Shown: positions 52,172-64,000 of the stretch, one piece after another
Position numbering within the stretch: the stretch's first letter is position 1
Layout: each line of letters begins with the position of its first letter
NCBI GenBank assembly: GCA_001899635.1
Contig: MKVQ01000041.1
Coordinates: 62,001-126,000 of the forward strand
From: Myxococcales bacterium 68-20
GTDB lineage: Bacteria > Myxococcota_A > Polyangia > Polyangiales > Polyangiaceae
Reading direction: 5' to 3'
DNA length: 64,000 nucleotides
Notes under the pieces: generated by a model
Told to the model about the DNA's origin: nothing
Seen by the model: the letters and a program-made list of their open reading frames with translations, nothing else
The model's database searches: none
Program-made: the position numbers and the translations under genes

Positions 52172-54067
52172 ATGTCGAACGGGAGCGCGCAGGCAGATGG
52201 CGCGATCGCGACGTATCGGGTGCTGCGAGAGCTCGGCGAGCGATCGCAACGCTCGTATGCCGCTTTGCGCGGCGACGGCTCGCTCGTCGTGCTCCATCGC
52301 TTCACGCGCGGAGCGGAACACGGCGACGGCGAGCGCGAGCTCGTCTCCGCCGAGCAGATGGCACTTCTGCTCCGCGATGCCCGCTGCCTCGCGAAGAACT
52401 GGCACCCCAACGTCGCGCGGGTCCGTCATGTCGACCTCGCGACGGAAGTACTCCACGTCGCGACGGACCTCGTCGACGGAGTCACCCTCGACGAGCTCCT
52501 CTCGATTGCGAGCGCCAGGCGTGCCCACCCGGAAGAGCCGGCGCTCTCGCACGCGGTCGTTGCGCGAATCTTCCTCGATGTCCTTGCGGGCCTCTCCGCC
52601 CTCCACGCGCTGCGAGACGGGATCAACGCGCCCCTCGATGCGTTCCACGGCGAGCTCTGCCCCGCGAACGTGGTCGTCGGCAAGGACGGCGTCGCCCGGA
52701 TCGTCAACGTGTTCCGCCCGCGTCCCGTGACGATCCGCGCGACGAGCGAAGCCCTCGGCTATGCATCGCCCGAGATCCTCGCCGGCGAGATCGAACAAGA
52801 CGCTCGCGCCGACATCCATGCCGTCGGCGTGATGCTGTGGGAAGCGCTGGCGGAGCGCCGCCTCTACGACGAGACCAGCCCTGGTCGAATCGCCCAGCGA
52901 CAGCGGGAGGAGGAGATCGCGCCTCCGAACGCACGCCTCGCCGACGTCGCGATGCGCGCGCTCGCGTTCGATCCGGCGCTCAGGTATCGCACGGCACATG
53001 AGATGGCAGCGAGCATGCGCGCGCTCGCGGGGACGGTCGCCTCGGGGAGCACGGTCGCGCAGATCGTGACCGACTTCGCGGGCGACCGCATCCGCTCGCG
53101 CCGAGCCAACCTCGATCCACAATCGTCGGGCCAGCGCCGCGTCCCCGCCAGGCTCCGGAAAGCGAGCTCCGGGACGCACCCGCGCATGCCGTCGGATCCG
53201 CTGCTCGCCGCACGCCCGCCGTCGGCACCGTCTCTCGGTGCGATGAGCGCACGCGAGATGGGGATCGTTGCGCCGCTGCCGCGTCTGGACGCCGACCTCG
53301 AGCCCGGTCCGCTGCCGCCTCGGCACGCGAGCTCGGCGCCGCCGCTCGCGACGGACGAAGCTTCGCGGCCGCCCAACGCCCCCGCACACGAGCTTCCGCT
53401 TCCAGGGAAAGCGACCGTCTCGTCGCTACCACCTCCGGACGAGGACGAGGACGACCTCCCCGGGCCGCGCGAGAGCACGCCTGATGACGAGTACCTCGCT
53501 AGCCTCGCGACGGACCTGCGCGGGCCACGCTCGTCGAGCACGGTCCTCGACGAGCTCGGCGCCGCCGACGACGACGACGATGACGACCTCGATGCGCTCG
53601 CGACCGCACGCGAGGTCACGCTGTCGAAGCGCGCGATCACGCCCGCTCCCGAACCGCACACGATCTCGCCCGAGCTGCCTGCGGTCGCGCCCGTCCCGCC
53701 GTCGCCGCCACGAGCGCCTTCGACGCGAACACCGTTCGTGGTCGACGTCCTCCCGAACGCGCTCGAGCCGACGAGCGACGTCGACGAAACACCACGGTGT
53801 TCACGTCCGCGCATCGCGCTCGCCATCGCCGCGGCGATCGTCCTCGCCGGCGTCGGCGCGGCGATCCTCGCGCTCCAACCTGCGCCGATCGCGCCGACGG
53901 CGGCCGCGCGTGCGCCCGACCCGCCGAGCACGGTGATCGTGGCGCCGCCCCCCGCGGTCGATCCGCTCCCGCATCCGAGCGCGACCGCGTCGACCGACGC
54001 GGCGCCTCGGGCAAGCGCGCCCGCATCTCCCCGGCAGAAATCGATCCCCGATTCGTCGCGCCACTGA
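52172..54067 (+). CDS. membrane pseudokinase with a disordered linker
   Basis: A 631-residue protein. The first 300 residues follow the kinase fold (YRVLRELGERSQRSYAAL, HPNVARVRHVDLA, GYASPEILAGEIEQDARADI, ALAFDPALRYRTAHEMAASM) but lack the glycine-rich loop, the ATP-binding Lys (VVLHRF), the catalytic Asp (FHGELCPANVVV) and DFG (RIVNVF). A linker of about 230 residues, including a run of seven Asp, leads to a helix (IALAIAAAIVLAGVGAAILAL) and a Pro/Ala tail. It should be inactive and may scaffold or inhibit kinases; the atypical kinase is its neighbour. Confidence 0.8.
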   Translation: MSNGSAQADGAIATYRVLRELGERSQRSYAALRGDGSLVVLHRFTRGAEHGDGERELVSAEQMALLLRDARCLAKNWHPNVARVRHVDLATEVLHVATDLVDGVTLDELLSIASARRAHPEEPALSHAVVARIFLDVLAGLSALHALRDGINAPLDAFHGELCPANVVVGKDGVARIVNVFRPRPVTIRATSEALGYASPEILAGEIEQDARADIHAVGVMLWEALAERRLYDETSPGRIAQRQREEEIAPPNARLADVAMRALAFDPALRYRTAHEMAASMRALAGTVASGSTVAQIVTDFAGDRIRSRRANLDPQSSGQRRVPARLRKASSGTHPRMPSDPLLAARPPSAPSLGAMSAREMGIVAPLPRLDADLEPGPLPPRHASSAPPLATDEASRPPNAPAHELPLPGKATVSSLPPPDEDEDDLPGPRESTPDDEYLASLATDLRGPRSSSTVLDELGAADDDDDDDLDALATAREVTLSKRAITPAPEPHTISPELPAVAPVPPSPPRAPSTRTPFVVDVLPNALEPTSDVDETPRCSRPRIALAIAAAIVLAGVGAAILALQPAPIAPTAAARAPDPPSTVIVAPPPAVDPLPHPSATASTDAAPRASAPASPRQKSIPDSSRH

Positions 54068-55043: not shown

Positions 55044-56402
55044 GTGCTGCCGATCACGCAGAGAAAACCTCCCAAGCACCTCGGCCGGTTCGAGGTCGGC
55101 GCCAAGATCGGCGGCGGGGGAATGGCGACGGTCTACCTCGGTCGCGACATCCGGGAGGATGGGAGCGAGGCCCTCGTCGCGCTGAAGGTGATCCGCGACG
55201 AGCTCGCGAACGACGAGCAGTTCGCAGCGATGTTCGTCGACGAGGCGAAGATCCTCGCCCGTCTCTCGCATCCGAACGTCATCCAGACCCTCGAGTACGG
55301 CGTCACCGGTCAGCATCGCTTCATCGCGATGGAGCTACTCAGTGGGCGGACCATCGCCGATGTCTGGGAGACCCTGGTCGAAGCGAAGGAGGCCTTCGAC
55401 CTCGGCATGGCCGCATGGATCTGCGCGCGAGTGGCCGAGGGGCTCCATTCCGCACACGAGCTCGTCGACGAGACGGGCTCCCCGCTCAGCGTCATCCACC
55501 GAGACGTGAACCCGACGAACATCTTCCTCACCCACTCGGGCGAGGTGAAGCTGATCGACTTCGGGCTCGCTCGCGCGCGCGTCCGCGCCTCGAAGAGCGC
55601 CGACGGCATCGTGAAGGGGAAGATCCCTTACCTCGCTCCCGAGCAGGCGTACGGCCGGCCGCTCGACCGACGGATCGACATCTACGCCCTCGGCACGACG
55701 CTCTGGGAGATGGCGACGATGAAGCGCTTGTTCAAGCGCGACACCGACATCGACACGCTCAAGGCGATCCGCGACGCCGCCGTGCCGGATCCGCGCGACC
55801 AGAATCCCGACTTCCCCGAGTCGCTGTGGAAGATCATCGATCGCGCGCTCCGCCGCGATCGCGACGAGCGCTATGCGACGGCGGAAGAGATGCGCACCGA
55901 TCTCGACGCGTTCGCGCGCGCGAGCGGACCGCACGCACAGAAGCTCGCCGCCCTCGTCGAGCGACTCTTCCCCGGCGGAGAGGCCCGGCAGGCGAAGTGG
56001 CTGCGCGACGCCGCGGCGGTCCGCGTCCCGGCCGCGACGATGGCGCCTCCCGCGCCGGTGCCGATCGCCTCCTCGAGCCTCCTCGAAGACGACGACGCGC
56101 GGTCGGTCCCCCACCTGCCCGCGCGTGAGTCGAAGCAAACGCCGCTTGCAGAAGCGAAGGCCGAGCACGAGTCGTCCCCTCCGCAGTCGCGCCGATCGTC
56201 GAAGGCGCCCACCCGACAATCGACGCGGCCGAAGCTCGAGAGCAAGCGACCGAAACCGAAGAACAAGAAGAAGGGCAAGCGGTCCGAGAGCGCCTCGCCC
56301 GCTCCCGTGGTCACGCCGGAAGAGGACACGCGGAAGCTCTGGATGATCGTCTCCGCCGTGGTCGCGGCGCTCGTCATCCTCGCTGTTCTCGCCTCGCGCT
56401 GA
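55044..56402 (+). CDS. Ser/Thr protein kinase with a C-terminal membrane helix
   Basis: A 452-residue protein with the kinase domain at about 13-290: IGGGGMATVYLG, VALKVI, VIHRDVNPTNIFL, IDFGLARA, YLAPEQ and DIYALGTTLWEMA. All catalytic residues are present; HRDVxPxN is usual in myxobacterial kinases. A basic, disordered linker (KRPKPKNKKKGKR) leads to a C-terminal anchor (IVSAVVAALVILAVLA). It faces the cytosol with practically no extracytoplasmic part. It starts with GTG, about 100 bases from the divergent LPMO-like gene. Confidence 0.92.
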   Translation: MLPITQRKPPKHLGRFEVGAKIGGGGMATVYLGRDIREDGSEALVALKVIRDELANDEQFAAMFVDEAKILARLSHPNVIQTLEYGVTGQHRFIAMELLSGRTIADVWETLVEAKEAFDLGMAAWICARVAEGLHSAHELVDETGSPLSVIHRDVNPTNIFLTHSGEVKLIDFGLARARVRASKSADGIVKGKIPYLAPEQAYGRPLDRRIDIYALGTTLWEMATMKRLFKRDTDIDTLKAIRDAAVPDPRDQNPDFPESLWKIIDRALRRDRDERYATAEEMRTDLDAFARASGPHAQKLAALVERLFPGGEARQAKWLRDAAAVRVPAATMAPPAPVPIASSSLLEDDDARSVPHLPARESKQTPLAEAKAEHESSPPQSRRSSKAPTRQSTRPKLESKRPKPKNKKKGKRSESASPAPVVTPEEDTRKLWMIVSAVVAALVILAVLASR

Positions 56403-56427: not shown

Positions 56428-56477
56428 AAGCTCCGTCAGAGCCAGGCGTCGAAAGCTCCGTCAGAAGCCCGGCGTCG
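56428..56477. repeat. 25-bp imperfect tandem duplication over a stop codon
   Basis: AAGCTCCGTCAGAGCCAGG and AAGCTCCGTCAGAAGCCCGG head two copies that both continue with CGTCG. The right copy contains the last codons and stop of the minus-strand kinase; the left copy follows it. Confidence 0.75.
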
Positions 56478-57801
56478 TCGCGACGCCACCCGCGGTCGCG
56501 GTCGGACGGGGCTTCGGAGGCTTCTTGTCGCCGGGCGCAGGCGGACGCTTCACCGTCGTGGTCGGCCGCGCGGTGGCGACCGCCCGCACCGCAGTCGACC
56601 CCGGCTCGGCGGCCGGCGGCGCAGGCTCGGCGCTCGGTGCAGGAGCCGGCGCCTCCGATGGCGGCGGGACCGAGATCGCAGGCTCGACCGCGGGTACCGT
56701 CGACACGGGGACCGAAGCGCCCGTCGTCACGGGATCCGGAGGACGACTCGGGCCGAGCGTCAGGCCGATGGCGATCACCGCGGCCCCGAGCGCAGCGCCG
56801 CCTGCGATGGCGAGCGTCTTCGCTTTGTTCCCCCGGGGAGCCTCGACGACGGGCCGCTCCGAAGAGATCGCGAGGCTCGACGGGCTCGTGGAGCGCGACG
56901 TGCCGGCCTCGGTTTGCGGGCGGAGCTCCTGGAGCGACTGCGCGAGGAGCTCGTCCGTCGCGTCGATCGCTCTACGAAGCGCCTCCGCGAGCTCGGCGCA
57001 CGTCGCAAAGCGTTCGTAGGGGCGCTTCGCGAGCGCACGCGAGATCGCGAGCCAGAGCCGGGGCTCGATGCGCGGATCGGGATCGACCTCGTGCTCGAGC
57101 ACCGCCGCGAGTGACGCCGCAGCCGCGTCCCTTTGGAAGACACGCACGCCGGTCAACATCTCGTAGAGGAGGACCGCGAACGCGAACATGTCGCTCCGCC
57201 CATCGAGGTCCTCCTGTCCGCGGATCTGCTCGGGCGACATGTAGTGCGGCGTCCCGAGGACGCTGCCATCCATCGTGAGCGCCGAGCCGGCGGCGGGAAG
57301 CTTGGCGATGCCGAAGTCGAGGAGCTTGGGGATGACGTGCCCGTCGGGCTCGACGGCGAAGAACACGTTCGCCGGCTTCACGTCGCGATGGACGATGCCC
57401 TTCTGGTGGACGTGGTGCATCGCAGAGAGGACCGGCACCGCGACGGCGACCGCCTGGAGCGCCGAGAGCGCGCCGCGCTCACGCATCGCGTCTTCGAGCG
57501 TGCTCCCGCGGAGCAGCTCCATCACGAGCCCGAGCGTGCCGTCCGCTTCGTCCACGAGATCGAAGACGCGCACCACGTTCCGATGCGAGATCGTCGCCGA
57601 AAGGCGTGCCTCGCGCCGGAACCGCTCGTCGTGCACCGGCGAGCGTTCGAAGCGATGGAGCGTCTTGACCGCGACCTCGGCCTGGGTGGCTTCGTTGCGC
57701 GCGACCCAGACGTCGCCCATCCCACCGCGCCCGATGCGCTTGATGAGCCGGATTTTTCCCCCGAGCAGGGTGTCGGGGGGGATTTCGCTTCGGGCCAACA
57801 C
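56461..57801 (-). CDS. Ser/Thr protein kinase with a C-terminal membrane helix
   Basis: A 446-residue protein. The kinase domain has IGRGGMGDVWVA, VAVKTL, IVHRDVKPANVFF, LDFGIAKL, YMSPEQIRG and SDMFAFAVLLYEML; catalytic residues are complete. A membrane helix follows (LAIAGGAALGAAVIAIGLTL) and a long Pro/Ala-rich extracytoplasmic tail. GTG 57801 is chosen because the upstream frame runs through a dispersed repeat and a poly-Ala stretch; TTG 57798 is an alternative. It is downstream of the small Cys-rich lipoprotein gene on the same strand. Confidence 0.9.
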   Translation of the reverse strand: MLARSEIPPDTLLGGKIRLIKRIGRGGMGDVWVARNEATQAEVAVKTLHRFERSPVHDERFRREARLSATISHRNVVRVFDLVDEADGTLGLVMELLRGSTLEDAMRERGALSALQAVAVAVPVLSAMHHVHQKGIVHRDVKPANVFFAVEPDGHVIPKLLDFGIAKLPAAGSALTMDGSVLGTPHYMSPEQIRGQEDLDGRSDMFAFAVLLYEMLTGVRVFQRDAAAASLAAVLEHEVDPDPRIEPRLWLAISRALAKRPYERFATCAELAEALRRAIDATDELLAQSLQELRPQTEAGTSRSTSPSSLAISSERPVVEAPRGNKAKTLAIAGGAALGAAVIAIGLTLGPSRPPDPVTTGASVPVSTVPAVEPAISVPPPSEAPAPAPSAEPAPPAAEPGSTAVRAVATARPTTTVKRPPAPGDKKPPKPRPTATAGGVATTPGF

Positions 57802-57830
57802 GCCTCGCCGGGATCCTAACGCAACTCGCG

Positions 57831-57866
57831 GCGGGCCGCAGGCCCACGTCTGCGGGTGGTTGGGGG
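57831..57866 (+). repeat. dispersed intergenic repeat, good copy
   Basis: GCGGGCCGCAGGCCCAC, then GTCTGCGGGTGGTTGGGG, differs from the 27346 copy at only two or three positions; the GGGCC hairpin is kept with GCA in its loop, while the second hairpin is lost. It lies just upstream of the kinase start at 57801. Confidence 0.75.
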
Positions 57867-57901
57867 TCGACGCGAGTGGTGCCCCGGTGTGGTCATCGCC
57901 G

Positions 57902-58267
57902 CTAGCACGAGGACGGACGTCGACAGTCGATGCCGTTCGGACCGCCGCCGCTGCCGCTGCCGCTGCCGCTGCCACCCGATCCGTTGCGGGCGCAGCAGAC
58001 CTCCGGGCTCTCGCAGTCTCCACGCTCGCACCAGGAGCAATGGTTGGTGGTGCAGTTCAAGCAGAGACGCGAGCCGCAGCAGACGCCTCGGCCCTGCGGC
58101 GGAGGGTTGTCGGGACAGCTGTACGCATCAGGGTCGTTGCCGCTGCTCGTGCCGGTGTCGGCCGCGCTGGCGTCGGCATCCGCGTACACGACGTCCGGGA
58201 CGGACGAACACGCGAGCGCGGGCAACGAGAGGAGCCCCAGCCCGAGGATGATGCTGACGGCACGCAT
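57902..58267 (-). CDS. small Cys-rich lipoprotein
   Basis: A 121-residue protein of unknown function: lipobox LALAC, an acidic linker, then twelve Cys (GVCCGSRLCLNCTTNHCSWC, CESPEVCCARNG) followed by a Gly-Ser run and a closing CRRPSSC. It is probably a disulfide-rich extracytoplasmic domain. The Gly-Ser run is encoded by a hexanucleotide repeat (57947-57974). It lies 22 bases after the TPR/PEGA gene and 100 before the kinase, so the three may share a transcript. Confidence 0.75.
   Translation of the reverse strand: MRAVSIILGLGLLSLPALACSSVPDVVYADADASAADTGTSSGNDPDAYSCPDNPPPQGRGVCCGSRLCLNCTTNHCSWCERGDCESPEVCCARNGSGGSGSGSGSGGGPNGIDCRRPSSC
57947..57974 (-). repeat. hexanucleotide microsatellite
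   Basis: GCTGCC (plus-strand reading) is repeated four times with flanking near-matches, encoding Gly-Ser pairs in the Cys-rich lipoprotein. Confidence 0.8.
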
Positions 58268-58289: not shown

Positions 58290-59282
58290 TCAGAACGTCA
58301 ACGCGAGACGCATACCGCCAAGCTTCGGCGTGACGAGATGCGTCGTAGCCTTCTGGCCCGCCGCAGGCGACCGGAGCAGAAAGTACGCTCCCGCACCCAT
58401 GGCTGCGAGCCCGACGATCGTGAGCGCACCGCCGAGTGGCCCGAACAGGCTCGCGCGATCGCGATCGCCCTCGATGTCCTCGCGCAGGCTCGTCGGGCAG
58501 ACGTTGCCCGGACATGCGGTATTGATGTCGTCGATCGTTCCCTCGCGAACGACCAGCAGCGCGCCGCCGGTGACGGCCAGAGCAGCGCCGGCGCCGAGGG
58601 CGATCCACGGGAGGGTCTTGTCACTCGACAGCGACGTGAGCGGCCCCCGCTCCGGCGTGAACGTGACCGTGTGGCCGACCTCGCCACCGCCGTCGGCGAC
58701 CGAGATGGTCTGCTCGTAGGGCTGCGAGTCTCGCGCGGTGGCGGCGATGACGTGATCGCCGGGGTCGAGCTCGATCACCCGCGGTGTCGTCGAGACGGGG
58801 ACCGGCGCACCGTCGACCGTGAGACGCACGTCGGCCGGGGGACTGTCCTGCACGCGCACGGCGACCTTCGGGATGCGTCGCTGCAGCTCGGCCGCCCGCT
58901 CCGCGGCGCTGTCCGCGGTCTCCTGATCGCTCGGAGGGAGGGACGGCTTCGCGACCGCGAGCGCGCGGTACATGTCACGCGCCTCACGGAGGCGCCCCAT
59001 GGCGACGAGCACCGTCGCGATCCGGTAGCGAACCGACGCGCTCTCCTTCACCTTGGCGACGCGCTCGAACTTCTCGAGCGCTTCGGGATAGCGCTTCTCC
59101 TGTTCGTCCTTGAACGCTTCCTGGAAAAGCTCACGCGCGGCCTGGAGCTCCTCGGGGGACTGAGCGAAGGCCCGCGGCGACAGCAGCCCTGCCCCCATCG
59201 CGACTGCGAGGGAGAGGGAGAGGGCGAACGCGCCGGACTTGCGCTTCACACTCCCCCGCAGACACGTGTGGCTATCCATCAT
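58290..59282 (-). CDS. TPR and PEGA-like membrane protein
   Basis: A 330-residue protein with a signal peptide (LLSPRAFAQS), two or three TPR-like pairs (FQEAFKDEQEKRYPEALEKF, VLVAMGRLREARDMYRALAV), a PEGA-like sheet (PPADVRLTVDGAPVPVSTTP, DPGDHVIAAT) and two membrane helices (TLPWIALGAGAALAVTGGAL and ALTIVGLAAMGAGAYFLL). ATG 59282 overlaps the end of the FHA/AAA+ gene by 11 bases, so the two are translationally coupled. This arrangement is common next to myxobacterial kinases; function unknown. Confidence 0.78.
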   Translation of the reverse strand: MMDSHTCLRGSVKRKSGAFALSLSLAVAMGAGLLSPRAFAQSPEELQAARELFQEAFKDEQEKRYPEALEKFERVAKVKESASVRYRIATVLVAMGRLREARDMYRALAVAKPSLPPSDQETADSAAERAAELQRRIPKVAVRVQDSPPADVRLTVDGAPVPVSTTPRVIELDPGDHVIAATARDSQPYEQTISVADGGGEVGHTVTFTPERGPLTSLSSDKTLPWIALGAGAALAVTGGALLVVREGTIDDINTACPGNVCPTSLREDIEGDRDRASLFGPLGGALTIVGLAAMGAGAYFLLRSPAAGQKATTHLVTPKLGGMRLALTF

Positions 59283-60618
59283 CGAGCGACACCCCATAGA
59301 GGCCCCGCTTCTTTAGCAGATCGCGAAGATGATGCCGCGCGACATCGGCCTTTCGTGCCGCGGCGGAGAGATTGCCCTGACACCCCTTCATCAGGATCGT
59401 GAGATAGGCTTTCTCGAAACGCTCGATTGCGCGCTCCTTCGCCTGGGCGAACGTCCCCGACAGATCGAGCGGCGCGCGCTCGCCCTCCGTCCCACGGAAG
59501 CCCTCGCCTTCACCGGCCACGTCTTGCCGCCGGATGACGCCGTCACGCGCGACCGCGGCAGCGCGCAGGAGCGCGTTGTCGAGCTCGCGGACGTTCCCCG
59601 GCCACGGCATCGACGCGAGGTGCTCGAGCGCGTCGACATCGATCATCGCCTCGATCCCGGCGCGCGCGAGGAGCTTCGCGCAGACCAGCGGCAGGTCCTC
59701 CTTCCGCTGCCGGAGCGGCGGCACGAAGACGCGAACCTGAGCGAGGCGGAAGTACAGGTCCTCGCGGAAGCTCCCCTTGTCGATCGCGTTGCGCAGATCG
59801 CGGCTCGTCGACGAGAGGACTCGCACGTCGATCGGAACCGGCGTCTGTCCCCCGACCCGCAGGATCTCGCGTCGCTCGAGCATCCGGAGCAGCTTGGCCT
59901 GGAGTGCAGGGAGTAGCTCGCCGACGCCGTCGATGAACACGGTGCCGCCCTGGGCGCTCTCGATGAGACCGCCCTCCTGGGCGTCGCCTCCGCCTTCGCC
60001 CTTCTCGTGACCGAAGATCATCGTCTCCGCGAGCGCCTCGGGGAGCGACGTCACGTCGATGACGACGAACGGCGCGGACGCGCGTCCGGACGCAAGGTGG
60101 ATCGCGCGGGCGACCCCCTCCTTGCCCGTGCCGGTCTCGCCCTGGACGAGGACGGCGAGCTCCTTGGGAGCGATGCGCTCCAGCGTGGCAAAGAGCTCGC
60201 GCATCGCGGGCGAGCGTCCGACGAGATCACCGAACGACTCGCGCGCGTTGGACGGAGGCACCGCCGCGTTCTCGTCGACATCGAGCCGCAGCACGGTGTC
60301 GCCGATCGTGAGCTCGCCTCCGATCGCGAGCTCGACGTCCATCACCTTGTGCTGTCCCAGCCACGTGCCGTTCGTGCTGCCGACGTCACGCGCACGAACA
60401 CGGTCGTGAACGCGCGTGAGCTCGAGGTGGGCTCCGCTGACGCGCGGGTCATCGACGACGAAGTCGTTCGTCGGGTGACGACCAACCGTGGCGCTGGCGC
60501 GGACGATCGCAAAGGCGCGTCCGGCAGAGGGGCCGCTCACGGCGACAAGCTTCGCCAACGTCTCGGTTCGCGTCACCAACCCCGGATTCGCTTCTGTACC
60601 CCCACGGACGGTACTCAT
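59272..60618 (-). CDS. FHA/AAA+ NtrC-like regulator lacking GAFTGA
   Basis: A 448-residue protein. FHA domain (about 28-115): VGRHPTNDFVV, SGAHLEL and STNGTWLG, all phosphothreonine-binding residues present. AAA+ domain (about 130-365): Walker A QGETGTGKEG, arginine-finger-like FREDLYFRL and WPGNVRELDNALL. The segment after FGHEKG reads EGGGDAQEG in place of the GAFTGA loop that touches sigma-54, and Walker B reads VFIDGVGEL, so the Glu after Asp is Gly. A Fis-type helix-turn-helix ends it (AAARKADVARHHLRDLLKKR). It may regulate without sigma-54 or ATP hydrolysis. ATG 60618 precedes MSTVRGG. Confidence 0.88.
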   Translation of the reverse strand: MSTVRGGTEANPGLVTRTETLAKLVAVSGPSAGRAFAIVRASATVGRHPTNDFVVDDPRVSGAHLELTRVHDRVRARDVGSTNGTWLGQHKVMDVELAIGGELTIGDTVLRLDVDENAAVPPSNARESFGDLVGRSPAMRELFATLERIAPKELAVLVQGETGTGKEGVARAIHLASGRASAPFVVIDVTSLPEALAETMIFGHEKGEGGGDAQEGGLIESAQGGTVFIDGVGELLPALQAKLLRMLERREILRVGGQTPVPIDVRVLSSTSRDLRNAIDKGSFREDLYFRLAQVRVFVPPLRQRKEDLPLVCAKLLARAGIEAMIDVDALEHLASMPWPGNVRELDNALLRAAAVARDGVIRRQDVAGEGEGFRGTEGERAPLDLSGTFAQAKERAIERFEKAYLTILMKGCQGNLSAAARKADVARHHLRDLLKKRGLYGVSLDDG

Positions 60619-60719
60619 CGGGGGCAACCATATTCATTCTCCGTTGCAAGACGCAACAGCTGCAGGTTTTTTCCGATTTCCGGTCGCGCTCAATCCGGCT
60701 GCTCTGTATACGAGAGGCC
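60619..60719. promoter_or_regulatory. divergent promoter region
   Basis: A 101-base AT-richer gap between the FHA regulator and the SulP fusion. It contains an inverted repeat near 60642-60656 (GTTGC with GCAAC), a run of Ts (60667-60672) and TGTATA (60705-60710), which would be a -10 element for a very short leader. The boxes are tentative. Confidence 0.4.
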
Positions 60720-62813
60720 ATGGGGGAGGAACGACGCGCCCGATCGAAGGGCGCTTACGTGACGGAGCTCATCGGGCTCGGTCGGCGCTACCGTGAGACG
60801 TGGTCGGACGCGCTCAAGGCGCGCTCCTGGGGCCAGGATCTCCTCGCCGGCCTGACGGTGTCTGCGGTCGCATTGCCGCTCAACGTCGGCCTCGCGATCG
60901 CGAGCGGAATGCCTCCGAGCGCCGGACTCGTCGCCGGCGTGATCGGCGGCGCAGTCGCCGCTCTCTGCGGTAGCTCGCAGTTCCAAGTCTCCGGCCCTGC
61001 GGCCGCGCTGAGTGTGATGGTGCTCGCGCTGTCGAAGGAGTTCGGCATGGCCGGCGTCGCCGCGGCGACGATGTACATCGGCGTCATCGAGCTCGTCCTC
61101 GCGTTCGCGCTCGCAGGCCGCGTCGTCAAGTACGTGCCCGAGTCCGTCCTCGCCGGCTTCACCACCGGCGTCGGGCTCAAGCTGCTCGATCAGCAGCTCC
61201 CCGAGCTCCTCGGGTTCCCCGAGGTCGTCGACTGGGCCCCGGATCACCACGCCGACACGATCGACATCGTCACGATGATGCACCACCCGATGTGGCTGCA
61301 CGACGTCTCGTGGCTCGCGGCGATGAGCGGCGTCTTCGTCGTCTTCGTCGTGACGGCGATGCGCGCCTTCAAGCGCTTTCCGGCGGCGATCGTGAGCATC
61401 GCGCTCGTCACCTTCGTGTCGATCTATCTGAAGTGGGATGTCGAGCGCGTCGCGAGCATCGGCGAGGTCCCCTCCAAGCTCCCGGCGGCGGCCTTCCCTG
61501 CGGTGCCGGACGAGAAGTGGCTCGACCTGCTCGTCAAGACCACGCCGCTCGCGCTGCTCGCCGCCGCCGAGTCGCTCCTCTCCGCGAGCGCGATCGACCG
61601 CATGGCGAACGCGAAGAAGGCCCACGACCCGAACGTCGAGCTCACCGGTCAGGGCATCGCGAACCTGTTCGTCGGCCTCTTCTCGGGCATGCCGGTCACC
61701 GGCGTCGTCGCACGAAGCGGCGTGAACGTGCAGAGCGGCGGACGCACACGGCTGTCGGCGTTCTTCCACGCGCTCTTCCTCGCCGCGATGATGTTGTTCC
61801 TGAGCCGTTACATCGGTCAGGTGCCGCTCGCGGCGCTGGCCGGCTTGCTGTGCGTCATCGGCTTCCGCCTGATCGAGCTGAAGACGCTCATCCACCTCTT
61901 CCGGGAGCACAAGCTCGAGGCGGTCGCGTTCATCGTCGCCGCGGGCGGGACCGTCTCCGGCCACCTCATGGCCGGCCTCGCCGGCGGCCTCGTGATCCAC
62001 TTCATCGGCCGGCGCCTCTTCGGCCACGGCCACGCGTCGTCGCACACCGATGCGGAGAGCAAGAAGCTCGGCGTACGCGCGGTCCTGTCGAAGCAGAAGG
62101 CGGAGGCTCGTCGCCCGACGCACTTCGAGCACCTCCCGAGCGAGTACCGCAAGTGGCTCGGTCAGATCCGCGAGGAGCCGCTCGTCGCGGGCAGCGCATA
62201 CGTGCATCCGGCCGCCACCCTCATCGGCCGCGTCGTCGTCGGCGATCGCGCCCATATCGCTGCCGACACCTCGGTTCGCGCGGACGAGGGCTCGCCGTTC
62301 CACATCGGCCCGAACACGAACATCCAGGACGGCGTCGTCCTCCACGCGCTCAAGGACAAGCACGTGATGGTCGCGGGCGAGCCCTGGGCGATCTACGTCG
62401 GTAAGAACGTCTCGATCGCGCACGACGCGCTGGTGCACGGCCCCTGTTACATCGGCGACGAGACGTTCGTCGGATTCAAGGCCGTCGTGCACGACTCGGT
62501 CGTCGGAGCGCACTGTTTCGTCGGCATCGGCGCCGTCGTGGTCGGAGTCGAGATCCCGGACGGACGCTTCGTCCCGCACGGGCGCATCGTCGACAGCGCC
62601 GACGCGGTCGACGCCCTGCCGCTCGTCAGCGAGTCACACAAGGAATTCAACGAGGACGTCGTCGAGGTCAACCGCGGGCTCGCGGTCGCCTACCACGCGC
62701 GTGATCGCGAGCGCGTCGGACATCGCCGCCCGAACGGCGAGGCCGACGACGTCACACGTCCCCCGGCCTGGGACGCGCGCTGGGCCACCGAGCTTCCGAA
62801 GGAGAGGTTCTGA
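60720..62813 (+). CDS. SulP anion transporter fused to gamma-carbonic anhydrase
   Basis: A 697-residue fusion. Residues about 38-445 form a SulP membrane domain with 10-14 helices (DLLAGLTVSAVALPLNVGLA, SGPAAALSVMVLAL, GLFSGMPVTGVVARSGVNVQ). The usual C-terminal STAS domain is absent. From about 490 a gamma-carbonic anhydrase left-handed helix follows: IQDGVVLHALKDK, VGKNVSIAHDALVHGP with the three zinc His, and EIPDGRFVPHG. The acidic proton-shuttle loop of the archaeal enzyme is missing, as in CcmM-like forms. It probably couples bicarbonate transport to CO2 hydration. Its stop overlaps the SPFH gene start (TGATG). Confidence 0.93.
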   Translation: MGEERRARSKGAYVTELIGLGRRYRETWSDALKARSWGQDLLAGLTVSAVALPLNVGLAIASGMPPSAGLVAGVIGGAVAALCGSSQFQVSGPAAALSVMVLALSKEFGMAGVAAATMYIGVIELVLAFALAGRVVKYVPESVLAGFTTGVGLKLLDQQLPELLGFPEVVDWAPDHHADTIDIVTMMHHPMWLHDVSWLAAMSGVFVVFVVTAMRAFKRFPAAIVSIALVTFVSIYLKWDVERVASIGEVPSKLPAAAFPAVPDEKWLDLLVKTTPLALLAAAESLLSASAIDRMANAKKAHDPNVELTGQGIANLFVGLFSGMPVTGVVARSGVNVQSGGRTRLSAFFHALFLAAMMLFLSRYIGQVPLAALAGLLCVIGFRLIELKTLIHLFREHKLEAVAFIVAAGGTVSGHLMAGLAGGLVIHFIGRRLFGHGHASSHTDAESKKLGVRAVLSKQKAEARRPTHFEHLPSEYRKWLGQIREEPLVAGSAYVHPAATLIGRVVVGDRAHIAADTSVRADEGSPFHIGPNTNIQDGVVLHALKDKHVMVAGEPWAIYVGKNVSIAHDALVHGPCYIGDETFVGFKAVVHDSVVGAHCFVGIGAVVVGVEIPDGRFVPHGRIVDSADAVDALPLVSESHKEFNEDVVEVNRGLAVAYHARDRERVGHRRPNGEADDVTRPPAWDARWATELPKERF

Positions 62814-63742
62814 TGATCGAGATCGGTGTCGCAGCGGGGCTCGCGCTCTACTGCATCTACGCCTTCTATCGATGCAGCTTCCGCGTGGAGGAAGGCCACC
62901 TCGCCGTCCTCGTCGCCTTCGGCAAGGCGGCGACGCACGACGGCCAGCGCCGGCTGAAGACCTACGGTCCCGGCATCCACTGGAAGAAGCCGTGGGAGCG
63001 CGCGGTGATCGTCTCGATGAAGGAGCAGACGCTCGACCTCAACCGCGAGGAAGGCGGCGGCAGCGCGATGGCCGACGACGGGACGATCCTCCGTCTCGAC
63101 TCGTTCGTCCGCTACGTGCCGGTGCAGAGCGAGCTCTACGAGTTCATGTTCGGGCTCGAGCGCCCGCTCGATCACATCACCGGCCTCTTCACCTGCCTGC
63201 TCCGGAACGAGATCGCCAACTTCCGCGGTAGCGAACCGGAGGTGGCGGGCGCGAAGGCCGCCAGCCTCGCGACCCGCTTCGACTTCGCGAGCCAGGCCGG
63301 CTCCTACGCTCTCATCCGCCAGCAGCGGCGACTCCTCAACGAACGGATCGAGTCGTTTTGCAGGCTGAAGATCGACGACCGATACGGCGTCCGCTTCAAC
63401 GCCGTCGACCTCGCCGACATCTTGCCTCCCGACGAGCTCGCGGACGCGCTCAACGCCGTCATCCAGGCACGCAGCGAGGCCGACGCCCTGCTCCATCGCG
63501 CGGAGGCGGAGTGCCAGCAGCGGATCGTCGCCGCCGAGCGCGGCGTCAGCGTCGCGACCGCACGCGCGCAGGCGATCGAGACGGAGATCCGGGCGCTCTG
63601 CGCCTTCCTCGACGACCTCGACGAGAAGGCCGTGCTCGAGGCTTACGTCGCACGACGTCGGGCGGAGGTGACGAGCGAGTCGCGCACGCTCTTCGTCAAG
63701 GAGCCCGCAACGAACGGCAAGCGCGTCGAGAGTGGAGCCTGA
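62813..63742 (+). CDS. SPFH/band-7 protein (HflK/stomatin-like)
   Basis: A 309-residue protein: one N-terminal helix (GVAAGLALYCIYAFYRC), an SPFH domain (VEEGHLAVLVAFGKAA, YGPGIHWKKPWERAVIVSMK) and a coiled-coil tail rich in Ala, Glu and Arg (ARSEADALLHRAEAECQQRI). It should form oligomeric membrane microdomain assemblies. It overlaps the SulP-carbonic anhydrase gene by one base and lies one base before the second SPFH gene, so the three are one translational unit. No protease gene is adjacent in the window. Confidence 0.88.
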   Translation: MIEIGVAAGLALYCIYAFYRCSFRVEEGHLAVLVAFGKAATHDGQRRLKTYGPGIHWKKPWERAVIVSMKEQTLDLNREEGGGSAMADDGTILRLDSFVRYVPVQSELYEFMFGLERPLDHITGLFTCLLRNEIANFRGSEPEVAGAKAASLATRFDFASQAGSYALIRQQRRLLNERIESFCRLKIDDRYGVRFNAVDLADILPPDELADALNAVIQARSEADALLHRAEAECQQRIVAAERGVSVATARAQAIETEIRALCAFLDDLDEKAVLEAYVARRRAEVTSESRTLFVKEPATNGKRVESGA

Positions 63743-63743
63743 G

Positions 63744-64000
63744 ATGAACCCCGAGATCCTGCGACTCGTCATCGGCATCACCATCGGTCTCGCGCTCGTT
63801 CCGCTGGTCGTGGCCCTCGTGAAGGGGACCACGATCACGGTGGAGGACGAGGAGGCCGTCCTCGTCACGAGCTTCGGCAAGCTCGTGAGCACGTACGACG
63901 CCCCTGGCCTTCACTTCGTCCCCGCGAAGCTGATGCCGTGGGTGAAGACCTCGCACGTGTCGCTCCGTCGCGACTTCCGGCACTTCAAGAACGTCCACGT
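63744..64000 (+). CDS. second SPFH/band-7 protein, cut by the window end
   Basis: Only the first 85 residues are visible. After a helix (LVIGITIGLALVPLVVALV) comes TVEDEEAVLVTSFGKLVSTY and APGLHFVPAKLMPWV, the SPFH start shared with the preceding gene. It begins one base after that stop. Two consecutive SPFH proteins recall HflK-HflC, which form a hetero-oligomer. Confidence 0.85.
   Translation, partial: MNPEILRLVIGITIGLALVPLVVALVKGTTITVEDEEAVLVTSFGKLVSTYDAPGLHFVPAKLMPWVKTSHVSLRRDFRHFKNVH

Follow-up and report, generated by a model that had tools for sequence, protein, structure and literature searches.

A SulP–γ-carbonic anhydrase fusion linked to a pair of SPFH genes in two bacterial phyla

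Gene organization of the locus

At the end of the window, i.e., the whole 64,000-nucleotide stretch of DNA that was analysed, lies a fusion gene for a SulP membrane domain and a γ-carbonic anhydrase (CA), followed by two SPFH genes, the second of which runs past the window. The features are as follows:

60720–62813 including the stop codon, + strand: SulP–γ-CA fusion, 697 residues, a single open reading frame with an ATG start
60834–61937, + strand: SulP/SLC26 membrane domain without STAS, fusion residues 39–406 (PF00916, E = 3.1e-67)
62007–62171, + strand: flexible linker, fusion residues ~430–484 (pLDDT below 50 at residues 438–479)
62172–62714, + strand: Cam/CcmM-type γ-CA domain, fusion residues ~485–665, by profile and structure matches
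62343–62345, 62421–62423 and 62436–62438, + strand: codons of the zinc histidines H542, H568 and H573
62715–62810, + strand: variable fusion tail, residues 666–697, with a conserved C-terminal Phe (here E-R-F-COOH) and WxxxW upstream of it
62813–63742, + strand: SPFH1, 309 residues, with an N-terminal transmembrane (TM) segment, an SPFH domain and a 65-residue helix, HflC-like by profile
63744–64000 and on to window coordinate 64664 (L005:4744–5664), + strand: SPFH2, 306 residues, stomatin/QmcA/HflK-like

A preliminary description of this DNA had placed a STAS-less SulP membrane domain and a γ-CA in one reading frame, which was borne out by the PF00916 match and a match to the CcmM model. The one-base overlap that it reported between the fusion and an SPFH gene was found at base 62813, which is common to the fusion stop codon and SPFH1, and the second SPFH gene does follow at once, starting at the ATG at 63744 (an upstream GTG at 63732 is a possible alternative start, giving 310 residues). 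Reading the genome past position 64000 for the remainder of the operon completed SPFH2 at 64664 and placed the next likely same-strand gene 280 bases beyond its end; therefore, the operon probably consists of these three genes. The arrangement of a SulP–γ-CA fusion with an SPFH pair is confirmed as real.

Conservation of the gene linkage

The unit is carried by some soil and water bacteria, and its genes are linked in two bacterial phyla. The search for relatives of the CA domain gave at least 80 loci, the best 80 of which were kept, with identity down to ~41%. Among these 80 listed loci, every one at or above 58% identity (28 loci) is a SulP–γ-CA fusion with SPFH1 and SPFH2 directly downstream, and none of the 52 with 47% identity or less carries either SPFH gene in the flanks retrieved. 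The preliminary description had named a lack of conservation of this linkage as one refutation of its reading, and the test did not refute it: both genes recur 3′ of the fusion in every one of the 28 close relatives listed. This recurrence also shows that the arrangement is not due to chance. The converse search from SPFH2 led to the same linkage, with 29 of 30 evaluable places adjoining a fusion. Across the window's phylum (377 genomes), 17 of 17 evaluable SPFH2 places adjoin one, counting L042, the SulP part of which lies beyond the contig edge; the start of a contig truncates an 18th place. In 58 genomes of the phylum of Fluviispira the count is 12 of 13, a 14th place being a contig-edge piece. 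The sole non-adjoining place is decayed or misassembled, and the linkage is thus near-exclusive as well as conserved.

Conservation was counted over 45 loci, which include the near-identical pairs L054/L057 and L238/L239; one genome contributes two units (L149/L150). Excluded were L036, L038–L041 and L044 (counterparts of L051, L054, L062, L071, L072 and L074), L148, L151, L153, L232 and L244 (which have 60-mers in common with L056, L066, L057, L067 and L064), the broken L237 and the contig-edge pieces L155 and L243. L042 enters the counts for the CA, the tail and the SPFH pair, contig ends truncate SPFH2 in L064 and L069, and the distance correlation among units covers 36 of the 45.

Among the 14 largest neighbour families (44 loci), none beyond the three genes is widespread beside the unit, leaving a larger operon unsupported. 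Two of these families look like shadow frames antisense to the unit's own genes, two small ones occur in 6 and 5 of the 44 loci, all on the Fluviispira side, and a frame resembling an FHA-sigma54 activator lies beside the unit in 3 loci. A search for plasmid-borne copies gave 94 matching PLSDB records, none of which covers 80% of the query. The same genome also encodes a SulP–STAS–β-CA protein with no SPFH gene beside it in 16 kb, so a SulP–CA pair does not in general require SPFH neighbours.

The γ-carbonic anhydrase domain and the C-terminal tail

The CA domain matches the CcmM model NF053794 with E = 1.3e-57 and 195.4 bits, far under the equivalog-domain cut-off of 550 bits, and its best match among solved structures is CcmM 3kwc (E = 6.1e-48). 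When aligned to Cam 3ow5 and CcmM 3kwc, it presents a full Cam-type site, i.e., three zinc histidines together with Arg, Asp, Asn and Gln, which we take to be the residues with roles in the Cam active site. R520, D522, E523, N534, Q536, D537, H542, H568 and H573 are conserved in 45 of 45 units, so that the three zinc histidines described earlier as kept are in fact invariant. The domain had been delimited as residues 490–697; a γ-CA is present there, but it ends near residue 665, and residues 666–697 form a separate tail. A confident model of the full-length fusion was dropped because both the CA part and the linker have low pLDDT in the AlphaFold model. The unit's CA shares zinc and active-site residues and hexapeptide repeats with CcmM of the β-carboxysome and Cam of Methanosarcina, and a short loop after the first zinc His with CcmM. 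In contrast to these proteins, it is fused to a membrane transporter and is not followed by further CcmM repeats, and it is only 41–47% identical to the 52 CcmM/γ-CA loci kept among the 80 listed.

The tail ends in Phe in 43 of 45 fusions, compared with 0 of 50 control γ-CA/CcmM proteins (the 50 of the 52 other CA loci with the stop codon in view), and a WxxxW motif precedes the Phe in 20 of 45. The Phe is not a by-product of overlapping stop and start codons, since 32 of the 34 fusions with an intergenic gap of at least 9 bases still end in Phe. The Phe-ended tail is a candidate docking peptide for the SPFH proteins.

The SulP half and its exchange

The SulP domain is complete by Pfam (PF00916, 227 bits against a cut-off of 23.2), and its model matches SLC26Dg 5iof (E = 1.3e-20) and BicA 6ki1 (E = 1.8e-19) in Foldseek. 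Neither Pfam nor the 25 NCBIfam families listed gave a STAS domain in the fusion, and the γ-CA sits in the STAS place. The best NCBIfam SulP model is that of the dicarboxylate transporter DauA, and a BicA identity was ruled out by the score of 144 bits against the NF050096 cut-off of 880 and by differing site residues. BicA, the Na+-dependent cyanobacterial bicarbonate transporter, resembles the unit in its SulP fold and in bicarbonate as the likely substrate. However, the unit has E284 where BicA has the Na+-binding Asp, and R332 replaces the Gly of the three BicA proteins that pass the family cut-off; a fourth relative, which scores below it, has Arg.

At the putative ion site, E284 is present in 44 of the 44 SulP-bearing units (39 of type A and 5 of type B) and R332 in 43 of them. 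In alignment, E284 corresponds to the acidic residue found in SLC26Dg and BicA, and R332, kept in both SulP types, to an Arg of prestin. In PMC8298490, the acidic SLC26Dg/BicA residue is equated with the H+-sensing E347 of SULTR4;1 and is given as absent from mammalian SLC26 members except SLC26A11. The E284/R332 pair was rejected as a substrate signature because it is common to all 31 non-BicA reference SulPs examined.

In the SulP tree, 8 of the 14 reference SulPs on the type A side are fused to or near a β-CA, whereas the opposite side has none among the 17 examined (Fisher p = 0.0004), in a sample retrieved with a SulP–βCA query, which may favour CA-linked loci. This count took loci of ~3–5 kb, includes L129 and L004 (the β-CA of the latter lying ~3.4 kb away with another frame between) and does not extend to DauA of E. 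coli or to two loci of the BicA group that are in the tree. A sister-group relation of the type A SulP to the same genome's SulP–β-CA protein was unsupported; the two have only a broad tree side in common. Type B SulPs fall outside the CA-linked side, and thus not all units need carry the same anion. The SulP half has changed at least twice on the tree of the unit's remaining parts (AU p = 1.5e-5), the two types being swapped while the CA, tail and SPFH pair stayed. In the chimera L150, an identity break at its residue ~480, inside the linker, marks the exchange joint.

The SPFH pair

Both proteins have the SPFH fold, SPFH1 by model and profile (PF01145, E = 7e-18, 65.7 bits against a cut-off of 23.6) and SPFH2 by profile (80.9 bits from the genome sequence). 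The SPFH1 model matches HflC, prohibitin and stomatin, the best Foldseek match being loose (TM-score 0.56, rmsd 8.9). HflC is the best solved relative of SPFH1, and SPFH2 is nearest to stomatin/QmcA. SPFH1 stays below the NCBIfam equivalog cut-offs for hflK (27.7 of 159.4) and hflC (23.8 of 134.4), as does SPFH2 for the HflK/HflC models when scanned as its 89-residue window piece. Each forms its own clade in a tree of 13 of the 45 units with few outgroups, which was used for the separateness of SPFH1 and SPFH2 and not for the genome's other SPFH paralogues, several of these having been read in the wrong frame. In their TM segment, SPFH domain and long helix they resemble the SPFH cages of HflK/HflC, QmcA and stomatin, and in being encoded by paired genes they resemble HflK–HflC. 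Unlike all of these, they are linked to one transporter–enzyme unit.

A net-positive stretch before the TM segment occurs in 0 of 45 SPFH1 and 2 of 45 SPFH2 sequences; HflK and HflC of E. coli carry two K/R at this place, with none in QmcA. These leader charges suggest, weakly for SPFH2, that the SPFH domains lie on the same side of the membrane as the CA. Support for this topology is weak, since the stretch before the TM segment of SPFH1 is only ~1 residue and since after the TM segment SPFH2 has 56 K/R versus 135 D/E over 45 sequences. The kinship of SPFH1 with HflC, which is periplasmic in E. coli, also speaks against it.

Proposed function and alternatives

With slightly better than even confidence, we propose that the unit is a metabolon for bicarbonate transport, kept together by an SPFH assembly of its own, i.e., a self-contained three-gene inorganic-carbon unit. 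The SulP domain would carry an anion, of which HCO3− is the likeliest, through the inner membrane, and the γ-CA tethered at its cytoplasmic end would interconvert HCO3− and CO2 at the transporter mouth. HflK and HflC form a hetero-oligomeric ring or cage, and SPFH1 and SPFH2 may form a similar one on the cytoplasmic face, which would gather and hold many SulP–CA units in one membrane patch, probably gripping the fusion via its Phe-ended tail. SulPs work as dimers and γ-CAs as trimers, and therefore the fusion should cross-link into clusters, bounded by the SPFH ring. The preliminary reading, a membrane-domain-organised bicarbonate uptake or pH module, is partly supported: its membrane-domain part fits a dedicated stomatin/HflC-type SPFH pair, and the bicarbonate substrate, the direction of transport and CA activity are inferences. 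A more elaborate version, to be regarded as rather doubtful, would have an SPFH1/SPFH2 dome on the cytoplasmic face over a lattice of SulP dimers and γ-CA trimers recruited through the Phe peptide, locally confining HCO3−/CO2 conversion. Such a nanocompartment would be a functional counterpart of the carboxysome CcmM core, but membrane-bound and equipped with a transporter that can be exchanged.

The SPFH pair could instead act as quality-control or protease adaptors for a single client, as HflK/HflC do for FtsH, with the Phe tail as a recognition signal that sets the amount of fusion rather than gathering it. The HflC kinship of SPFH1, the two-gene pair recalling HflK–HflC and a conserved C-terminal signal on an otherwise variable tail all suit this idea, which we nevertheless consider unlikely: the lack of any further widely recurring neighbour gene (in a tally where families are unnamed) argues against a linked protease, and the leader charges point, if weakly, to a cytoplasmic SPFH domain, unlike HflK/C. 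Similarly improbable is the opposite direction of transport, in which the CA hydrates metabolic CO2 and HCO3− leaves via SulP in anion exchange, serving to regulate pH or to dispose of CO2 as red cells do, with the SPFH proteins supporting exchange as stomatin does for AE1. The sampled hosts belong to lineages regarded as heterotrophic, which would suit export, as would R332 with its prestin counterpart and the stomatin–AE1 precedent (PMC5383999). However, the alignment of E284 with the acidic residue equated with the H+-sensing SULTR4;1 E347 (PMC8298490) favours symport. Substrates vary in the SulP family and the best model is DauA, so that sulfate or another anion might be carried, with the γ-CA as a trimerisation or regulatory domain replacing STAS; this is quite improbable, given that nine active-site residues needless for a structural domain are kept in 45 of 45 units and that the type A SulP lies on the CA-linked side of the tree.

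Relation to known systems

Felce and Saier reportedly described SulP–(STAS–)β-CA fusions and sulP–can neighbours in 2004. In these systems, as in the unit, SulP is joined to or beside a CA and is read as a bicarbonate transport metabolon; the unit differs in its unrelated γ-class CA, the lack of STAS, the two SPFH genes and the C-terminal Phe tail. The SulP–βCA system of Acidithiobacillus clade C is among the closest known (PMC6458275). The arrangement is undescribed in the literature searched by titles and abstract starts, a scope that most subscription journals fall outside; the main text of a 2009 SPFH survey (PMC2636767) has no mention of carbonic, sulfate, permease or SulP, and PMC13086221 none of carbonic, SulP, sulfate or bicarbonate. 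The function of most bacterial SPFH proteins is described as unclear in PMC12005517. Here evolution points to an SPFH client, i.e., one transporter–enzyme fusion with its own SPFH pair and a candidate docking peptide, and the unit shows how a transporter half can be exchanged with enzyme and scaffold left in place. It lends itself directly to domain swaps, tail truncations and reconstitution, with Fluviispira multicolorata (L065) as a named isolate genome.

The red-cell assembly of AE1, CA and stomatin likewise combines a bicarbonate transporter of related fold (SLC4 and SLC26 being kindred in fold), a CA and an SPFH protein. However, these are separate animal proteins with SLC4 rather than SulP, in contrast to a covalent fusion in a bacterial operon, and the two are presumably independent in origin. 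Stomatin binds AE1 and raises its HCO3−/Cl− exchange, according to PMC5383999. The question of what stomatin-type assemblies do to bicarbonate transporters, familiar from red-cell AE1, could be addressed in this compact bacterial system. A solved structure, 9zd2, is titled as aquaporin 1 bound to stomatin.

Architecture of the unit

The preliminary description had joined a SulP transporter and a gamma-class carbonic anhydrase (CA) in one frame, and this is borne out by the matches of the two parts to PF00916 (E 3.1e-67) and to the CcmM structure 3kwc (E 6.1e-48). Its further claim, that the fusion shares one base with an SPFH gene and that a second SPFH gene follows directly, agrees with the reading frames (62813 and 63744).

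60720-62813, +, SulP-gammaCA fusion, one 697-residue frame
Fusion residues 39-406, SulP domain (PF00916)
Fusion residues about 485-665, gamma-class CA domain
C-terminal 32 residues of the fusion, tail
62813-63742, SPFH1, start sharing one base with the fusion stop codon
63744-64664, SPFH2, 306-310 aa, end read in L005, the window's locus continued past the window
G000:C42:295954-298239, L129, SulP-STAS-betaCA fusion of the window's genome, 762 aa, its STAS and CA parts recognised by eye and by BLAST
G000:C41:298516-299703, L004 (also L246), free-standing STAS-less SulP of the window's genome

The linker between SulP and CA is disordered. Beyond the window, the next likely gene lies 280 bases after SPFH2, in a genome of 11.9 Mb assigned to Myxococcota by its nearest named relatives. 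An FHA-domain sigma-54 activator (59272-60627, minus strand) is divergent from the fusion, and similar frames occur near two other units (L066, L239), probably by chance recurrence. Upstream, three neighbouring frames resemble serine/threonine protein kinases by eye (52172-54067, 55044-56402 and 56461-58023).

Conservation of the linkage

When 282 genomes of the window's phylum were searched with the CA domain, nine other genomes gave very close relatives (E below 1e-75), with SPFH1 and SPFH2 directly downstream of the CA in all nine; one of them (L042) has its SulP part past a contig edge. An alignment of ten CA domains was scanned against a collection of 84,980 species, and the 80 loci among the matches listed form two sets without overlap in identity, 28 at 58% or more and 52 at 47% or less. 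Each of the 28 listed loci carries a one-frame SulP-gammaCA fusion followed by SPFH1 and SPFH2 (SPFH2 being truncated by the contig end in L064 and L069), so that the coupling proposed earlier is conserved among these relatives, whose hosts are Myxococcota and bacteria of Bdellovibrionota type, the isolate Fluviispira multicolorata among them. The fetched flanks of the 52 others (cyanobacteria, Bacillaceae and others) held no SulP or SPFH match. Four free-standing gamma-CAs of the window's phylum (L045-L048; genomes G239, G265, G137, G158), 36-48% identical to the CA domain and lacking any match to SulP or SPFH in the sequence fetched around them, are possible kin of its ancestor.

The converse test ran the SPFH2 profile on 377 genomes of the window's phylum and 58 of Fluviispira's. 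The former gave 18 places in 16 genomes, 17 of which adjoin SPFH1 and the fusion, the last being at a contig start; the latter gave 14 places in 13 genomes, 12 of which adjoin the fusion. The remaining two are a contig-edge piece and an incomplete unit in genome G418 (L237:5216-7240), where SPFH2 is intact but half of SulP, all of the CA and the initial third of SPFH1 are gone, reflecting either deletion in a decaying module or misassembly. The association thus holds both ways at all testable places, with this one decayed or misassembled exception.

Frames neighbouring the unit at 44 loci were compared all-against-all, and no fourth broadly recurring family was found among the 14 largest clusters, two of which resemble antisense shadow frames. 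The FHA-sigma54-type family occurs at 3 of the 44 loci, and two families of small uncharacterised proteins at 6 and 5, on Fluviispira's side only: L065:8511-8990 (relatives in L233, L238, L239, L241, L242) and L233:2858-3298 with its relatives. No SPFH match was found in the 16 kb fetched around the SulP-STAS-betaCA fusion (L129). Since no broadly recurring fourth family appears, the unit is taken to comprise three genes. Near the unit of genome G139, a 598-aa frame (L037:10889-12685) looks flotillin-like by eye and, if so, would bring the SPFH proteins around that module to three.

SulP-CA fusions of the beta class are already known, as are SPFH cages; in the limited literature searched, no gamma-CA fusion accompanied by its own SPFH pair was described.

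The CA domain and its tail

The best solved relatives of the CA part are CcmM and the Cam-type enzymes. Nine positions aligned with the active sites of Cam and CcmM (R520, D522, E523, N534, Q536, D537, H542, H568, H573) are invariant in 45/45 units, and CA activity is likely on this sequence evidence.

The last residue is Phe in 43 of 45 fusions, a count that includes related, non-independent sequences (exceptions L073 and L152), and in none of the 50 gamma-CA or CcmM proteins used as controls. The end reads [R/K]F in 37/45 and [D/E][R/K]F in 26/45, with a WxxxW motif upstream in 20/45, while tail length and sequence vary. Gene overlap was ruled out as the cause, since Phe persists in 32 of the 34 fusions that are separated from the next gene by 9 bases or more. 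Standing free at the C-terminus of a disordered tail, such an aromatic residue resembles a docking peptide, for which the SPFH pair would be the obvious candidate partner. No description of this Phe tail was found in the limited literature searched.

The SPFH pair

SPFH1 and SPFH2 form separate clades in a tree of 13 units. The SPFH1 profile is nearest to HflC (E 2.8e-15), and that of SPFH2 to stomatin (1.6e-19), then QmcA and HflK. In the SPFH1 model (mean pLDDT 87), a single transmembrane segment (TM) at the N-terminus is combined with an SPFH domain and a helix of 65 residues; the structural matches of the model are HflC, prohibitins and stomatin, at modest TM-scores.

About one residue precedes the TM in SPFH1, never K/R in 45 sequences; 45 SPFH2 sequences have 7 K/R vs 31 D/E there. 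In E. coli, HflK and HflC have two K/R each before the TM and QmcA none. K/R are more numerous after the TM than before it in 44/45 SPFH1 and 34/45 SPFH2, with D/E far above K/R after the TM of SPFH2 (135 vs 56, 45 sequences). QmcA is oriented N-out, and this likeness suggests that the SPFH domains may face the cytoplasm, the CA's side.

The SulP domain and its substrate

SLC26Dg and BicA are structural matches of the membrane domain as predicted, with pLDDT mostly 80-96 but 60-75 around residues 161-190. E284 aligns with Glu of SLC26Dg and Asp of BicA, and R332 with Arg of prestin. The E284 position is reported to correspond to E347 of AtSULTR4;1, where it matters for proton sensing, and to matter for Na+ in BicA (PMC8298490). 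Because E284 and R332 occur in 31/31 non-BicA reference SulPs, they speak against an Na+ site of the BicA kind and name no substrate. On the tree side of the window's SulP kind (type A), 8/14 reference SulPs have a beta-CA fused to them or close by, vs 0/17 examined on the other side (p 0.0004), in a set gathered with a SulP-betaCA query and hence possibly biased toward such loci. An earlier study reads SulP beside or fused to can as bicarbonate transport (PMC6458275), which together with the tree position lends circumstantial support to HCO3- as the substrate. In the window's genome, SulP is fused to CAs of two unrelated classes, gamma in the window and beta in L129.

A proposed role for the unit

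Gamma-CAs are homotrimers (Cam, CcmM). SulP/SLC26 proteins are homodimers (PMC8298490), and since a homodimer is here joined to a homotrimer by a flexible linker, the fusion should cluster, SulP dimers and CA trimers cross-linking one another. An SPFH ring on the CA's side would bound and hold this cluster, perhaps gripping the Phe tail, and the held cluster would keep HCO3-/CO2 conversion at the transporter. This metabolon-plus-SPFH reading is, on balance, just probable. A precedent for an SPFH protein acting on bicarbonate transport is red-cell stomatin, which interacts with AE1, HCO3- permeability being 47% lower in stomatin-deficient ghosts (PMC5383999). The main rivals are that the SPFH pair serves quality control of the fusion, and that the unit exports bicarbonate.

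Exchange of the transporter half

Five units (L066, L071, L072, L074, L150) carry a different SulP, type B, only 27-30% identical to the window's, vs 58-78% for the CA; all five retain the terminal Phe. A SulP tree of 35 units unites the 30 domains of type A in a single group and joins the five of type B to L004. The CA+SPFH1+SPFH2 tree (36 units) refuses a single clade of type B units (AU p 1.5e-5), places L150 inside the window's own group and requires, by its starred branches, at least two changes of SulP type, interpretable either as two gains or as one gain followed by a return. Each change is an exchange, barring two units in one ancestor sorted by loss.

L150 is a chimera: up to about residue 480 it follows L004 (77% identity over the SulP domain) and from there on the window's protein (77-93% in 30-residue stretches across the CA domain), with the joint inside the linker. 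Genome G347, of the same genus, holds a type A and a type B unit. Judged by sequence, L004 is likely a recent relative of the domain-swap donor. Transporter exchange within a SulP-gammaCA unit was not described in the limited literature searched. As SulP types are exchanged while CA, tail and SPFH pair stay, the latter constitute the stable core and the transporter is exchangeable. Among 36 type A units, the closest correlation of distances is that between SPFH1 and SPFH2 (Spearman 0.88; other pairs 0.69-0.77).
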